Source: Fimbriimonadaceae bacterium
GTDB taxonomy: Bacteria > Armatimonadota > Fimbriimonadia > Fimbriimonadales > Fimbriimonadaceae
Assembly: GCA_019454145.1 (NCBI GenBank)
Contig: CP075366.1
Location: forward strand, 1,095,564 to 1,159,563
Direction: 5' to 3'
DNA length: 64,000 nt
The translations under genes were made by a program, and so were the position numbers. Below the pieces are notes generated by a model. That model was not told where the DNA came from. It was given only the letters and a program-made list of their open reading frames with translations, and made no database searches. Every line of letters starts with the position of its first letter. The stretch's first letter is position 1. Shown piece by piece: positions 31,903-37,765 of the stretch.

Positions 31903-32604
31903 TCACAGAATTCCATCGGGAGGTGTAAGAGTGATTTCGTCCACGACTCTATCTGCGGGCAAAGCGATCACATCCGCTATCGTTTGCGCGACGGAAACAG
32001 CGGAAAGCATTTTTTCGGTGGGTGGGCTAAACCCTTGGCTATCCCAAAGAGGTGTGTTCACCGCTCCAGGGAGGATATTAGTAAGCCGAATCCCGGAACG
32101 GCGATATTCTTCACGCAAAGAGTTTCCGAACTGGAGAATCCCTGCCTTTGTCGCGGAATACACTGCGGCTCCACCAAAAACGTGCTTTGCCGCAATGCTG
32201 AGCACGTTGATGATCAACCCCGATTTGTGATCCAACATTGCTGGCAGAACCGCATGCGTGAGCTTCATGGTGCCGACCAAATTGGTTTCAATCTGTGCCG
32301 CATGGTCATCCCATCGGGTTTCGGCATAATCGCCAAACTGCGCCATGCCTGCGTTATTAATCAAGACTGGTTCGCCGCCCGTTCGTATGAATTCTTTAAC
32401 TTTGGGGTTCGCCGCAACATCGCATACGTCGCCAACGATAAACCGCACAGACGCCGCACCGTTCGATTCGCACTGAACCGCAAGTTCGCGGAGGAGGTGG
32501 TCACGTCGAGCTGTGAGAATTAAGTGATGGCCCTGCTTGGCAAGGATCAATGCAAGTTCAGCCCCGATTCCACTACTGGCACCGGAGATCAGAACTGTTT
32601 TCAA
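31903..32604 (-). CDS. Short-chain dehydrogenase/reductase, possible sepiapterin reductase
   Basis: A 233-residue classical SDR. It has the NAD(P) motif SGASSGIG (residues 7-14), an arginine pair TARRD favouring NADPH, INNAGMA, and the catalytic Ser-Tyr-Lys in VLSIAAKHVFGGAAVYSATK. It overlaps the tandem PTPS-like gene by four bases. Sepiapterin reductases are SDRs, so coupling with a PTPS suggests the last step of tetrahydrobiopterin synthesis; the sequence alone would only say SDR. Signature residues of sepiapterin reductase cannot be judged by eye. Confidence 0.8.
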   Translation of the reverse strand: MKTVLISGASSGIGAELALILAKQGHHLILTARRDHLLRELAVQCESNGAASVRFIVGDVCDVAANPKVKEFIRTGGEPVLINNAGMAQFGDYAETRWDDHAAQIETNLVGTMKLTHAVLPAMLDHKSGLIINVLSIAAKHVFGGAAVYSATKAGILQFGNSLREEYRRSGIRLTNILPGAVNTPLWDSQGFSPPTEKMLSAVSVAQTIADVIALPADRVVDEITLTPPDGIL

Positions 32605-33419
32605 CGAGAAACCTCAAACATATTCCGAGCCGTTTCATAAAGCCGAATTCGTTCTAACTGCCCCGGTACAGCTTCTTTTAGCCGATCAAAAATTGTTAAC
32701 CCCACCACTTCGCTTGTTGTGTTTTTCCCGCTAAAATCGGGAATATCCATATCCAAATTCTTATGATCGTATCGATCAACGACTTCACGATTCACAACCT
32801 CATCCAGCTTACCGAGGTCTACCATCATTCCCGATGGCTCGGCGATTTCCCCACTCACCGTGACTTCCAAAACATAGTTGTGACCATGCCCGTTAGGGTT
32901 GTTGCATTTGCCAAACAGCCGCACATTTTCTTCGTGCCCCAGTTCAGGAACATCTAACCGGTGCGAGGCGGCAAATTCATAACTGCGAGTGATGGTGATC
33001 ATGTCGTTTTCTAATTTCCACTCACCGTATAGGAGTGGTGTTTCTTCTAGTTTCAGGGCTGTGAGTTCGACTTCGCCCGGCAGGTCGCGGAGCGTATCCC
33101 GGAAATGTCGAAGCAGATTCTCAAGCGATGGAGATTGGTGGGCAAATTCAGGAATCTCATCGTTGATACTTTTTTGGTCAAACCGGGCGACAACTCTCTC
33201 CTTTAAGATGTCATCAATCCACTTAATGTTAACAACCATTCCGTCAGATTCATTGACCTGTCCCTTCGCCGAAACCCAAAGCACATAGTTATGACCGTGG
33301 TTGTATTTGGAAGCCCATTCCCCGAATACTTCCCGATTTGCGGCTTCGTTAAGCAAGGGTAGCCAATAACGGTGCCCGCTACTGAAACTGACTTTTCGGG
33401 AGAGGGTGACTTGCGGCAT
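32601..33419 (-). CDS. Tandem-domain 6-pyruvoyl-tetrahydropterin synthase-like protein
   Basis: A 272-residue fusion of two PTPS/QueD folds (about 1-135 and 140-272), twice the usual length. Domain 2 has the full PTPS set: zinc His153, His178 and His180 in GKCNNPNGHGHNY with catalytic Cys172, Asp218-His219 in YDHKNLD, and Glu262 in LYET. Domain 1 keeps the zinc histidines (SSGH, HGHNY) and LEET but has Trp35 at the Cys position and Asp81-Gln82 for Asp-His, so it looks catalytically dead. The FGKCNNPNGHGHNY and DHKNLD wording is closer to animal-type PTPS than to typical QueD. It is coupled to an SDR. Confidence 0.88.
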   Translation of the reverse strand: MPQVTLSRKVSFSSGHRYWLPLLNEAANREVFGEWASKYNHGHNYVLWVSAKGQVNESDGMVVNIKWIDDILKERVVARFDQKSINDEIPEFAHQSPSLENLLRHFRDTLRDLPGEVELTALKLEETPLLYGEWKLENDMITITRSYEFAASHRLDVPELGHEENVRLFGKCNNPNGHGHNYVLEVTVSGEIAEPSGMMVDLGKLDEVVNREVVDRYDHKNLDMDIPDFSGKNTTSEVVGLTIFDRLKEAVPGQLERIRLYETARNMFEVSR

Positions 33420-33423
33420 CGAA

Positions 33424-34296
33424 CTACTTCTCTCTACGATACGCTAATCCCAAACTCTGAGGGGTCTGTGTCCCTTTGCCTACCGCAACCAAAACAATTA
33501 GTGCGACTACATAGGGCAATGCCATGAAGAACTGAATTGGGATTGCCGACCGCCCTTGAAGTGCCACTTGGAGCCAATCTAGGATTCCGATAAGGAAACT
33601 CGCCGCCAGCACCCACATGGGCTTCCAGCGCCCAAATGTGACGAGCGCAATAGCAATAAATCCTCGCCCAGCGGTCATATTGGGAGCAAAACTGCTGGCG
33701 GTCCCAAGCGTGAGATAAGCCCCGGCTAGTCCGGCGAAAACTCCTCCAATGAGCAATGCAATCATTCTTAACCGAATCACAGAGAACCCAGCTGATTCGA
33801 CGGCAGGTGGATATTCTCCGGCTCCACGGAGTGCAAGACCAAACTGAGTTCGGAACAATAACCAATGTACGCCCCAAGCGAGAATCGGCAAGGAGAGTAA
33901 GAGGACATCGATGCCAAGCGGGAGTTTAGGAATCCCGGCGACGCCGCTGAATTTTTGCCCACTGGCAACGCCCGCATCAAAAAGCGTACTCGTCAATCCA
34001 AGCCCGATCAGGTTCACTGCCGTACCTGCGACCACTTGATCGCTCGCCAGCACAACCGTAAAGAACCCTTGGATTAAGTTCAGAATTGCACCGATCAGGA
34101 CAGCCGCAAGCAAACCAATCATCCACGATCCAGTTACCGCGCTTGCTACCACCGCCGCATAACAAGCGACAAGAATGGTTCCTTCTAGGCCGATATTGAG
34201 CACACCGGCTTTTTGCCCGATTGTTTCACCTAGAGCGGCAAACGCAACTGGCGCCGTGAACTGAGCGATCAGGAAAAACCAAACAACTGCTTCCAT
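33424..34296 (-). CDS. BMP-type nucleoside ABC transporter permease
   Basis: A 290-residue permease with about eight membrane helices and the RbsC/BPD_transp_2 pattern (LGETIGQKAGVLNIGLEGTI at the start, EYPPAVESAGFSVIRLRMIA loop near 165). It matches the YufQ/NupQ class of the nucleoside uptake systems that use BmpA binding proteins. It overlaps the other permease by one base in an operon of binding protein, ATPase and two permeases. Confidence 0.92.
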   Translation of the reverse strand: MEAVVWFFLIAQFTAPVAFAALGETIGQKAGVLNIGLEGTILVACYAAVVASAVTGSWMIGLLAAVLIGAILNLIQGFFTVVLASDQVVAGTAVNLIGLGLTSTLFDAGVASGQKFSGVAGIPKLPLGIDVLLLSLPILAWGVHWLLFRTQFGLALRGAGEYPPAVESAGFSVIRLRMIALLIGGVFAGLAGAYLTLGTASSFAPNMTAGRGFIAIALVTFGRWKPMWVLAASFLIGILDWLQVALQGRSAIPIQFFMALPYVVALIVLVAVGKGTQTPQSLGLAYRREK

Positions 34297-35315
34297 TAGT
34301 CGAACCTCCGCTGAGTTTTTCTATTGAGTGCCCACAGAATGGCAATATAGGCTAAAACCGCGAACCCCTGCACCGCCGGAACAACGCTATTGCCAATCGG
34401 AGTTGAACGTTTGAGAACCTCCGATCCAGCAAACAAAGCACCAAAGTAAGTGGCACTTCCCAGTGTTCCAATTGGGGTCAGGCCGCCCAACAACGCCACG
34501 GGAATCGCGATGAATCCCCAGTTTTGCGAATATCCATCCGCCAGCCTTCCTGTAAGGCCAACATAGTCCACCGAACCGGCCAATCCACACAATCCGCCGC
34601 TGATTGCCATAGCCCGGATTTGGATAGCTCCAACTGGAAGTTTGTTAGCCCTAGCCGCATCAGGAGAATCGCCCACAACCCTCAAATGAAACCCAGGAAT
34701 TGTATAGCGCAGAAAAACCCAAATGAGAACGGTTGCGATCAATGCGATAAAGACTCCGCTGTGCAAGTCAGTGCCGGAATCAAACCGCATGAGCATCACT
34801 TCATTCGGCAAAGTATCCGTCACGAAGGTTTGTTTTTTTGATTCCTGAAGTGGGCCACGGAGTGTCCACTCGAGAGTTAGCAAAGCAAGGAAGTTCAATA
34901 AGATTGTGGAGATCACCACTTGAACTCCACGCTTCACATAGAGCCATCCCGCCAGTGCCCCGAACAGCGCACCGCAAATAATTCCGCTGATCAAGATAAA
35001 TATTGAAAGCACGCTCGGCATGAACGAGGACAGGAATTTCGCGCAAAATGCTCCGCCAATTCCGCCTAAAACGTACTGGCCCTCGCCTCCGATGTTGTAC
35101 ATTCCCGCCCGCCATGCGACAACGATTCCAAGACCAGCGAGGCAAAGCGGGGTGGCGCGCACCAGAGTTCGGGCAATCGCGACTTTATCGCTAAACGCTC
35201 CCTTCCACATGATGGCAAGGCTTGCGGGAACATCTAATCCAAAGGCGGCAAAAGTCAGCGCGAGCACTAACACCATTCCCAGCGCGAGCAGAACAAAACG
35301 ACCAACGGCTTTCAA
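34296..35315 (-). CDS. BMP-type nucleoside ABC transporter permease
   Basis: A 339-residue permease with eight to ten membrane helices and the YufP/NupP hallmark ARTLVRATPLCLAGLGIVVAWRAGMYNIGGEGQ, continued by LPVGAIQIRAMAISGGLCGLAG. It pairs with the permease downstream to form the channel. It overlaps the ATPase gene by four bases. Confidence 0.92.
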   Translation of the reverse strand: MKAVGRFVLLALGMVLVLALTFAAFGLDVPASLAIMWKGAFSDKVAIARTLVRATPLCLAGLGIVVAWRAGMYNIGGEGQYVLGGIGGAFCAKFLSSFMPSVLSIFILISGIICGALFGALAGWLYVKRGVQVVISTILLNFLALLTLEWTLRGPLQESKKQTFVTDTLPNEVMLMRFDSGTDLHSGVFIALIATVLIWVFLRYTIPGFHLRVVGDSPDAARANKLPVGAIQIRAMAISGGLCGLAGSVDYVGLTGRLADGYSQNWGFIAIPVALLGGLTPIGTLGSATYFGALFAGSEVLKRSTPIGNSVVPAVQGFAVLAYIAILWALNRKTQRRFD

Positions 35316-36745
35316 GCGTTTGCCACCAAGAACTGGTCGTTGATACCGCCCGATTGGAGATATTTAGTTTCATCCGCTAACGCTGAAAGTTCGTCGAGGT
35401 CAGTCGAAATCAGGAGCACAGCGGCCCCTCGCTCAGCCGCTTCCCGCAATCGGCGGTGAACATAGTCTGTTGCCCGGATATCCAGCCCGCGAGTCGGATT
35501 CACAGCAATGATGAGATCCGGGTTCTGAGCCAAGTTGCGAGCCACGACGATTTTTTGTTGATTTCCTCCGCTCAAGCTTTTTGCCGTATCAGTTTCTTTG
35601 CCGACTTTGATTTCGTATTCGGCGATCATACGCTGAGCGTAATCCCTAACTAAAGCCGGACGAATGAATAGCCCCCACTTACATTCACTCGGAACCCCGC
35701 TCAACATCAGATTTTCTGCTACCGATAAGCCGAGCGCAAGTCCATCGGTTTGGCGGTCTTGCGGAATATACGCAACGTTGTCAGGCAATGTGAGCACGCC
35801 GTCATAATCTCTCACTCCGGCTAATGCCTCGGCTAACTCAATTTGCCCATTGCCATCAACCCCGCCTAACCCGAAAATCTGTCCAGCCAAGATTTCAAAG
35901 TCGACCGAATCAATAACTTTAACTCCGCGATCATCGTTAACAGACAACTTTTCCGCTTTCACCAAAACTTCGCCAAAGCTACGTTCACCATCTTTAGCGA
36001 ATTCGGGGACATCTCCCACCATCCATTCAGCAAGTTGGACTTCGTTCGTGTCGCCAATCAAGGAAGTCGCGATGAGTTCGCCTTTTCGCAAAACCGTCAC
36101 ACGGTCGGCGACCGCCATGATTTCGCTCAGCTTATGGGCGATTAAGATCACTGCAATCCCTTGGTGGCGAAGTTTTCTGAGCACTCCAAATAAATCTCTG
36201 ATTTCGTCTGGGCTGAGCACCGCCGTCGGTTCGTCCAAAATCAACACCCGAGAATCACCCGCCAAAGCCTTGAGGATTTCAATTCGTTGCTGTGCACCCA
36301 CCGGGAGCTCCAAAACTATCTTTTGAAGATCAACATTCCAGCCAAGTTCGGTCCCTTTCCCCGTCGCCAATTTCGAGAGCTCCGCGAGCGAAAGAGGTGT
36401 CAAGTTGCCCGTTATTTCGCCCAACGCTAGGTTTTCCGAAACCAAAAACTGAGGCACCAGCATGAAATGCTGGTGAACCATCTTCACGCCAAGCTGACGG
36501 ATTTCAATCGGGCGACCAGTTGGAAGTGGAGAGCCGTCGAACAAAATATCCCCCTGATCTGGCGAAACAAATCCAGAAAGTATCCCCATCAAGGTTGATT
36601 TCCCAGCCCCATTCTCACCTAATACGGCATGGATTTCACCCGATAAGAAATCAACTGAAACATTATCTAGTGCGCGAACGGCCCCGTAAGATTTTGAAAC
36701 CGCCCGAACCTGAATGAGGGCTTCAGTTCGTGGTTCGGGCGGCAT
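35312..36745 (-). CDS. Nucleoside ABC transporter, double ATP-binding protein
   Basis: A 477-residue protein with two nucleotide-binding domains. The first carries GENGAGKSTLMGIL (about 39-52) and LDEPTAVLSP; the second has a reduced Walker A (GGVDGNGQ) and the signature LSGGNQQK. This is the usual RbsA/YufO/MglA architecture, in which the second site is degenerate. It drives nucleoside uptake. Genes upstream and downstream encode the binding protein and two permeases. Confidence 0.93.
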   Translation of the reverse strand: MPPEPRTEALIQVRAVSKSYGAVRALDNVSVDFLSGEIHAVLGENGAGKSTLMGILSGFVSPDQGDILFDGSPLPTGRPIEIRQLGVKMVHQHFMLVPQFLVSENLALGEITGNLTPLSLAELSKLATGKGTELGWNVDLQKIVLELPVGAQQRIEILKALAGDSRVLILDEPTAVLSPDEIRDLFGVLRKLRHQGIAVILIAHKLSEIMAVADRVTVLRKGELIATSLIGDTNEVQLAEWMVGDVPEFAKDGERSFGEVLVKAEKLSVNDDRGVKVIDSVDFEILAGQIFGLGGVDGNGQIELAEALAGVRDYDGVLTLPDNVAYIPQDRQTDGLALGLSVAENLMLSGVPSECKWGLFIRPALVRDYAQRMIAEYEIKVGKETDTAKSLSGGNQQKIVVARNLAQNPDLIIAVNPTRGLDIRATDYVHRRLREAAERGAAVLLISTDLDELSALADETKYLQSGGINDQFLVANA

Positions 36746-36754
36746 AAATGATTC

Positions 36755-37765
36755 TCAGAATTCGTCTTTTGGAATTGTCAGCTCACCTGCGATGATTGCC
36801 GCTTGGAGCTTGGTGATTTCTTCACGTACTTCGGATTGAATCTCCGAAGCAAGTAAAGGATTCAGCACGAAATCCACGGCGCCTTCTTGCATTCCTACGA
36901 GCTGAATTTCTCCATGGTACTTTCCTTCTTTCACTAATGTGGCAAGGGCGACAAACGGCTTTTCGGCAAGGATCACTGCGCTAGCTATACATTGCGGGCT
37001 GAGTTTGTTTTGGTCTTCATTTGCGCCAAACGCCCAAACATTTTTTTCTTCGCAGGCACTGAAGAACCCGGTAACCGCCGCATTGGTTTGATGGATCAAG
37101 TAGTCAGCTCCTTCTGCGATCGCTTGTAGAGTTGCCTGCTTTGCCTTGGCAACGTCGTCATTACTGCCGGTGAATTTTTCTATCACTTCAATTGATGGAT
37201 TCGCTGCTTTTGCTCCCGCCGCAAATGCTTTGAATGTTGAACGGATTGATGGAACATCTGGCCCGCCGATCATGCCGACTTTTCCAGTTTTGCTTTGCTT
37301 TCCAGCAATGAACCCAGCTAAGTAAAAGCCTTGCTCAAGGTAGAAGCGGAATGCACCTGAGTTTGCGGTTGTTTCTCCCCCACTACTACTTACAAAAACC
37401 GTGTTTGGGAACTCTTTAGCAATCTCCGCTGCTGGCCCGTTGTATTCAAAGCCATGACCGATCACGAGTTGGTAGCCATCTTGGGCAAAGCTGCGCATCG
37501 CATCTTTGATTGCGGCATCTTTGGTGGTTTGCTGACTGACTTCTGCACCCAGGTCTTTTTCGATTGCGAGCAATCCTCTATTTGCGAGTGCACTCCAGCC
37601 ACTATCGTTTACGTTTCCAGGAGTGAGCAGGGCAACCTTTAGTTTGCCTTCTACGGGTTTGCCAACGGGAAGATCTTTTACCGAAACGGCTGTACCTTTA
37701 TCTCCGCCCGAACAACCAACAATTACAAGCAGAATCGCGAACAGTGCAATGATCCAACGAGACAT
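36755..37765 (-). CDS. BMP-family substrate-binding lipoprotein of the nucleoside ABC transporter
   Basis: A 336-residue lipoprotein with lipobox IVGC (Cys18) and the BMP/PnrA family blocks VALLTPGNVNDSGWSALANRGL, VFVSSSGGE, AGFIAGKQSKTGKVGMIGG and IHQTNAAVTGFF. It captures purine or other nucleosides outside the inner membrane. The first gene of the four-gene operon. Its ATG directly follows a GTGCGTA/TACGCAC inverted repeat that overlaps a -10-like TAAAAT, so repression by a dimeric regulator at a leaderless promoter is plausible. Confidence 0.92.
   Translation of the reverse strand: MSRWIIALFAILLVIVGCSGGDKGTAVSVKDLPVGKPVEGKLKVALLTPGNVNDSGWSALANRGLLAIEKDLGAEVSQQTTKDAAIKDAMRSFAQDGYQLVIGHGFEYNGPAAEIAKEFPNTVFVSSSGGETTANSGAFRFYLEQGFYLAGFIAGKQSKTGKVGMIGGPDVPSIRSTFKAFAAGAKAANPSIEVIEKFTGSNDDVAKAKQATLQAIAEGADYLIHQTNAAVTGFFSACEEKNVWAFGANEDQNKLSPQCIASAVILAEKPFVALATLVKEGKYHGEIQLVGMQEGAVDFVLNPLLASEIQSEVREEITKLQAAIIAGELTIPKDEF

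Follow-up and report, generated by a model that had tools for sequence, protein, structure and literature searches.

A probable 6-pyruvoyl-tetrahydropterin synthase built as a tandem with a conserved, degenerate first domain in Fimbriimonadaceae

Introduction

Why should a bacterium keep, within a single polypeptide, two domains of 6-pyruvoyl-tetrahydropterin synthase (PTPS), the first of which lacks catalytic residues? The question is raised by a gene in the window, the 64,000-nucleotide stretch of a Fimbriimonadaceae genome analyzed here. In rat PTPS, Cys42 is said to come from one subunit and Asp88 and His89 from another, near the trimer–trimer interface, an account associated with Nar in 1994 and Ploom in 1999. 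The tandem protein is unlike known PTPS in that it has two domains per chain, the first of them catalytically degenerate. The PTPS enzymes known so far have one domain per chain and form homohexamers (PMC7546909); an intersubunit catalytic triad is named in the title of Burgisser 1995, cited in the same paper. No paper on a tandem PTPS was found in the literature searched, and the protein apparently represents a known fold, and a likely ordinary reaction, in an undescribed architecture.

Results

The tandem gene and its two domains

An earlier note, made from the letters of the sequence, had placed a two-domain PTPS at positions 32601–33419. The plus-strand frame over these positions is full of stops, and the minus-strand open reading frame encodes a protein of 272 aa in which PF01242 matches twice (177 bits for the whole protein), which confirmed the two-domain PTPS and assigned it to the minus strand. 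When the halves were scored separately, each was recognized on its own at a cut-off of 22.4 bits, with 73 bits for domain 1 (D1; residues 1–138, positions 33006–33419, minus strand) and 108 bits for domain 2 (D2; residues 139–272, positions 32604–33005, minus strand). The two domains are 34% identical to each other. The source genome that carries the gene is complete (2.76 Mb), and a genus-mate genome encodes a tandem protein that is 97% identical.

Alignment revealed that D1 keeps the zinc histidines H16, H41 and H43 and the equivalents of the pterin glutamates, E100 and E126, and that the catalytic Cys is replaced by Trp35 (codon TGG, 33315–33317, minus strand) and the catalytic His by Gln82 (codon at 33174–33176, minus strand); every residue that the earlier note had assigned to D1 was correct. 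All site positions are intact in D2 (H153, H178, H180, C172, D218, H219, E237 and E262), and its motif FGKCNNPNGHGHNY is identical to that of human PTPS, bearing out the description of D2 as complete and of the animal type. D2 also shares with animal PTPS its fold (Z 18.9 to 1gtq and 3i2b), its zinc histidines, Cys/Asp/His and pathway context. The best PDB matches of the tandem are human and rat PTPS (3i2b, 1b66); the protein carries the PTPS-II motif and lies nearest to these two enzymes, and so does not group with QueD. With D1 degenerate and D2 complete, the chain would hold only one complete site for every two domains, half of what is usual, as had been expected.

Conservation of D1 in Fimbriimonadaceae

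The tandem protein was matched in 79 of 85 Fimbriimonadaceae genomes at an E value of 0.001; after one genome (G014) had been set aside as a weak QueD-like match, 78/85 had either the tandem or a clear portion of it. D1 lacked both Cys and His in 50/50 Fimbriimonadaceae tandems examined, and D2 had Cys, Asp and His in 50/50. Because the same pattern recurs in every one of these tandems, the losses from D1 are not a matter of chance. The Cys position of D1 was occupied by W in 46 tandems, by I in 2 and by F or Y in the remainder, so that 48/50 had a large aromatic residue there, and the His position was occupied by Q (38), G (9) or L (3). The three zinc histidines and E100 of D1 were present in all 50. 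Comparison of the source protein with its nearest relative gave a dN/dS of 0.034 for D1 and 0.038 for D2. The low value for D1, together with residues fixed across 50 genomes, rules out a pseudogene or decay; judged by these sequences, D1 is a conserved, selected, non-standard domain.

The invariance of the zinc histidines and E100 is more than a bare scaffold needs, and D1 may have a ligand-binding or regulatory role. One explanation, which we regard as rather unlikely, is that D1 is not inert and that a pterin (BH4, the product or the substrate) binds to its zinc site, pterin glutamates and Trp-lined pocket, by which D1 would regulate or feed D2. The fixed zinc histidines and E100, the aromatic residue at the Cys position and a dN/dS as low as that of D2 are all consistent with such a role. 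Outside Fimbriimonadaceae, however, many tandems lose the zinc ligands yet keep the fold, so that metal binding is no general need of the architecture.

Predicted structure and assembly

The AlphaFold single-chain model of the tandem had a mean pLDDT of 96.2 and a pTM of 0.91, and predicts that D1 and D2 lie next to each other within a single sheet. According to DSSP, strand 4 of D1 ends at residue 135 and strand 1 of D2 starts at residue 140, leaving a linker of four residues (136–139; 33003–33014, minus strand), and the inter-domain joint was short and of conserved length in all 41 tandems compared. Using VIA-align, residues 2–272 of the model superposed on urate oxidases with a Z of about 12 (12.5; 224 residues, 4.3 Å) and the model superposed on GTP cyclohydrolase IB with a Z of about 11 (204 residues); the model of an eroded planctomycete tandem superposed likewise. 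The model thus has the side-by-side arrangement of tandem T-folds found in uricase, a likeness of arrangement only and not of kinship. Identity to urate oxidase and GTP cyclohydrolase IB is ~5–11% over the residues aligned, and the chemistry of these enzymes is different.

The earlier note had reasoned that the fusion would make a pseudo-hexamer. The fusion itself stands, but a pseudo-hexamer of three tandems is doubtful given the predicted packing of D1 against D2 across a four-residue linker. Since side-by-side pairs cannot tile a ring of three T-folds, of the kind present in the PTPS dimer of trimers, an even-numbered ring is expected; on the basis of the model, a uricase-like ring built from two chains is more likely.

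Proposed mechanism

We consider it probable that the tandem is the PTPS-II of the tetrahydrobiopterin pathway, that catalysis takes place in D2 and that D1 is a pseudo-domain kept as half of the barrel. D2, with its zinc site, Cys172 as the catalytic residue and the Asp218–His219 pair, would convert 7,8-dihydroneopterin triphosphate to 6-pyruvoyl-tetrahydropterin. D1 would be unable to carry out standard PTPS chemistry and would be retained as half of the barrel, perhaps forming one wall of the D2 site. If the triad is shared between subunits, a D1 without Cys and His implies that only a D2–D2 contact builds a complete one. Complete triads would then arise only between the D2s of two chains, D1–D1 contacts would be dead, and each chain would have a single active site alongside a zinc site that is dead. 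That only D2–D2 contacts complete triads would also account for the loss of both Cys and His from one domain and of neither from the other. An alternating D1–D2 triad was considered for the source protein and discarded, because it yields no complete triad when D1 has neither Cys nor His.

Tandems in other phyla

A profile built from the 41 tandems matched tandem proteins in many Armatimonadota families, and the genome collection contained more in Bacillales, Latescibacterota, Eisenbacteria and planctomycetes, as well as in a gammaproteobacterial MAG lineage where the first half is nearly erased. In two members of this last lineage (L086 and L106), a PTPS-II domain follows ~120 residues that resemble a nearly erased PTPS domain. 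The cross-phylum set comprised 104 tandem sequences, 103 of them distinct (one contig appears twice, as L058 and L170). D1 had both Cys and His in none of the 104; six kept the Cys without the His and ten the His without the Cys. By contrast, the D2 Cys was present in all 104 tandems, and every chain had at least one His. Judged by sequence, degeneration of the first domain characterizes the tandem PTPS architecture as a whole and is not confined to one lineage.

In three of those ten tandems (L166, L167 and L175) the D2 His is lost and the D1 His is kept, with the D1 Cys lost. Loss of the D2 His occurred only where D1 keeps its His (Fisher p 0.0007, uncorrected for phylogeny and drawn from about two independent lineages). 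This pattern suggests a possible split triad, in which the D2 Cys would be paired with a His from D1; or the triad His could be dispensable in these proteins. Given these three sequences, the homotypic D2–D2 picture may not be universal.

Erosion goes furthest in planctomycetes, where all zinc ligands of D1 are gone. For one eroded planctomycete D1 the prediction still gave a T-fold with confidence, apart from the former catalytic loop, which is disordered (residues 14–33, pLDDT <50). Among 24 zinc-less D1s, conservation was highest at scaffold positions, with R8, G53 and G60 present in 24/24 and N64 and I65 in 23/24. E100 was kept in 17/24 and missing in 7/24; compared with the 24/24 of R8, G53 and G60, this frequency weakens E100 alone as the reason for the retention of D1.

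Another explanation is a split-site enzyme, in which D1 would donate residues in trans to the D2 site, so that neither domain works alone. A precedent exists in bimodular QueF, where the catalytic Cys lies in the C-terminal module and has been lost from the N-terminal one (PMC5372742). Like the tandem, QueF of E. coli and Vibrio cholerae has two weakly similar T-folds in one chain. It differs in being a nitrile reductase whose Cys/Glu and QueF motif are divided between the modules, whereas the tandem D1 keeps neither Cys nor His. The three tandems that lost the D2 His only where D1 retains one, and the E100 kept in 17 of the 24 zinc-less D1s, point in the direction of a split site; the D1 of the source protein, however, can supply neither Cys nor His, and E100 is missing in the other seven. 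On balance, we think it improbable that this explanation applies, and retain the reading of D2 as the catalytic domain with D1 as a structural partner.

Pathway assignment

PTPS families can be told apart by diagnostic motifs: PTPS-II, the biopterin enzyme, has CxxxxxHGH, QueD has CxxxHGH and PTPS-III has ExxHGH (PMC5041015). D2 carries the PTPS-II motif (C172-NNPNG-H178-G-H180), in which D1 has W for C, and the residues by which PTPS-II is recognized, that is, the three zinc histidines together with Cys, Asp and His, are all found in D2. The QueD motif is absent from both domains. So is the PTPS-III motif, the residues before HGH being KYN in D1 and PNG in D2.

The rest of the genome holds genes that fit a biopterin pathway. 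FolE and FolB (PF02152) were not found in the source genome, which is 99.6% complete; FolE2 is present, as it is in 76/85 Fimbriimonadaceae genomes, along with pterin-4a-carbinolamine dehydratase and a phenylalanine 4-monooxygenase gene scoring above the equivalog cut-off (NF008877). A biopterin-dependent hydroxylase was detected in 74/85 Fimbriimonadaceae genomes, and tandem PTPS and hydroxylase co-occurred (Fisher p 0.012 among genomes at least 90% complete, a value that partly reflects one reduced genus without both).

Directly downstream of the tandem lies a short-chain dehydrogenase/reductase (SDR) gene (31903–32604, minus strand; PF00106), whose TTG start overlaps the PTPS stop codon (TTGA). 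Its product is a candidate sepiapterin-reductase-like enzyme, and its second-best PDB match is the sepiapterin reductase 2bd0. An SDR on the same strand adjoins the tandem in 28/50 Fimbriimonadaceae loci. In other phyla PTPS-II has FolE, and in many cases an SDR, as neighbours; the order PTPS–FolE–SDR was observed in Ignavibacteria, Gemmatimonadetes and another Armatimonadota lineage. Because the PTPS-II motif occurs together with a separate QueD-type gene, FolE2, the hydroxylase, the dehydratase and the overlapping candidate SDR, the tandem is most likely, as far as gene content can tell, the biopterin-pathway PTPS of this bacterium.

The absence of PF02152 from the genome could also mean that the tandem stands in for FolB in folate synthesis, in the manner of PTPS-III. 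Considering that ExxHGH (PMC5041015) is found in neither domain, which led us to reject a PTPS-III or FolB replacement, and that a biopterin-using hydroxylase co-occurs with the tandem, this function is very improbable.

QueD (PTPS-I) belongs to the same superfamily as the tandem and has the same zinc histidines. The source genome has a second PTPS gene (L004:4069-4506), which is single-domain, shows the QueD pattern (CQNLHGH) and lies ~324 kb from the tandem. This gene sits among unrelated genes (the guaA, hpt, rho neighbourhood) and not with queC, which is present at 2.095 Mb and does not adjoin the tandem either. Against the NCBI QueD model TIGR03367 (cut-off 89.25), the whole tandem scored 107.5, its single domains 66.8 and 45.3, and the QueD-type gene 81.2; the tandem passes the cut-off because two domain scores add up. 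Automatic annotation would therefore tend to misname both genes. The view that the tandem is QueD (6-carboxytetrahydropterin synthase) acting in queuosine synthesis has the whole-protein score in its favor but is disfavoured by the per-domain scores, both below the cut-off, by the lack of CxxxHGH in D2 and of a queC neighbour, and by the other gene with CQNLHGH, and we give it next to no credence. The earlier note had thought that a separate QueD gene cluster nearby, together with grouping of the tandem within QueD, would count against its proposal: a separate QueD-type gene exists, and the grouping was not observed.

Upstream of the tandem, with a gap of 4 bases, is a BMP/PnrA-type nucleoside ABC transporter made up of two permeases, an ATPase and a substrate-binding protein (33424–37765, minus strand; PF02608, PF00005 and 2x PF02653). 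Transporter permeases lie upstream of the tandem in 45/50 Fimbriimonadaceae loci, which suggests that nucleoside uptake is linked to pterin synthesis.

Two other neighbourhoods were recorded in the wider collection. In a Latescibacterota MAG (L071), nucleoside transporter permeases adjoin a tandem PTPS and FolE. In Paenibacillus (L060:4848-7391), and upstream in Metabacillus (L059), the tandem PTPS is adjoined by an open reading frame of 847–850 aa that is membrane-sensor-like.

Origin of the fusion

Two separate PTPS-II genes stand next to each other, mostly followed by FolE, in Acidobacteria and Chitinophagaceae; these pairs resemble the tandem in having two PTPS-II paralogues side by side and differ from it in being unfused. 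In a tree of 76 domains, the D1s of the tandems and the first Acidobacteria gene formed a clade (support 99/97), and the D2s and the second Acidobacteria gene fell outside it in weakly supported groups; the tree is based on 147 columns and has long branches, and its reading is suggestive. Constraining the duplication to have occurred within Armatimonadota was disfavoured, not rejected (AU p 0.089). Duplication within the lineage was rejected for the Acidobacteria gene pair (AU p 0.034). The domain phylogeny suggests that the duplication is old and that fusion came later.

In five Acidobacteria loci (L062, L067, L080, L084 and L087), His89 of the second unfused PTPS-II gene is changed to L, V or I, and the first gene is complete. 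The second gene, the counterpart of D2, departs at Asp88/His89 in several of the Acidobacteria pairs, the reverse of what is seen in the tandems.

Discussion

A broader evolutionary scenario can be proposed, to which we give somewhat less than an even chance. Fusion of PTPS-II paralogues would have turned an enzyme with three-domain rings into one with a uricase-like even ring, and half of the catalytic positions would thereby have been freed to decay; which half was given up would differ between lineages. The losses to be explained in this way would be those of Cys and His from D1 in Fimbriimonadaceae, the split of Cys and His between domains in some relatives, the loss of the entire zinc site in planctomycetes, and that of Asp/His in the second of the unfused genes of some Acidobacteria.

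If this is true, the genomes would preserve a natural series of stages, with two active paralogues at the start, paired genes and fusions in between and a completely eroded partner domain at the end, and would document a route from a homo-oligomeric enzyme to a pseudo-heteromer. As subunits share the active site in PTPS, the pattern of loss would in that case report which subunits touch. For the family itself, the biopterin reading, if right, suggests that most Fimbriimonadaceae make tetrahydrobiopterin.
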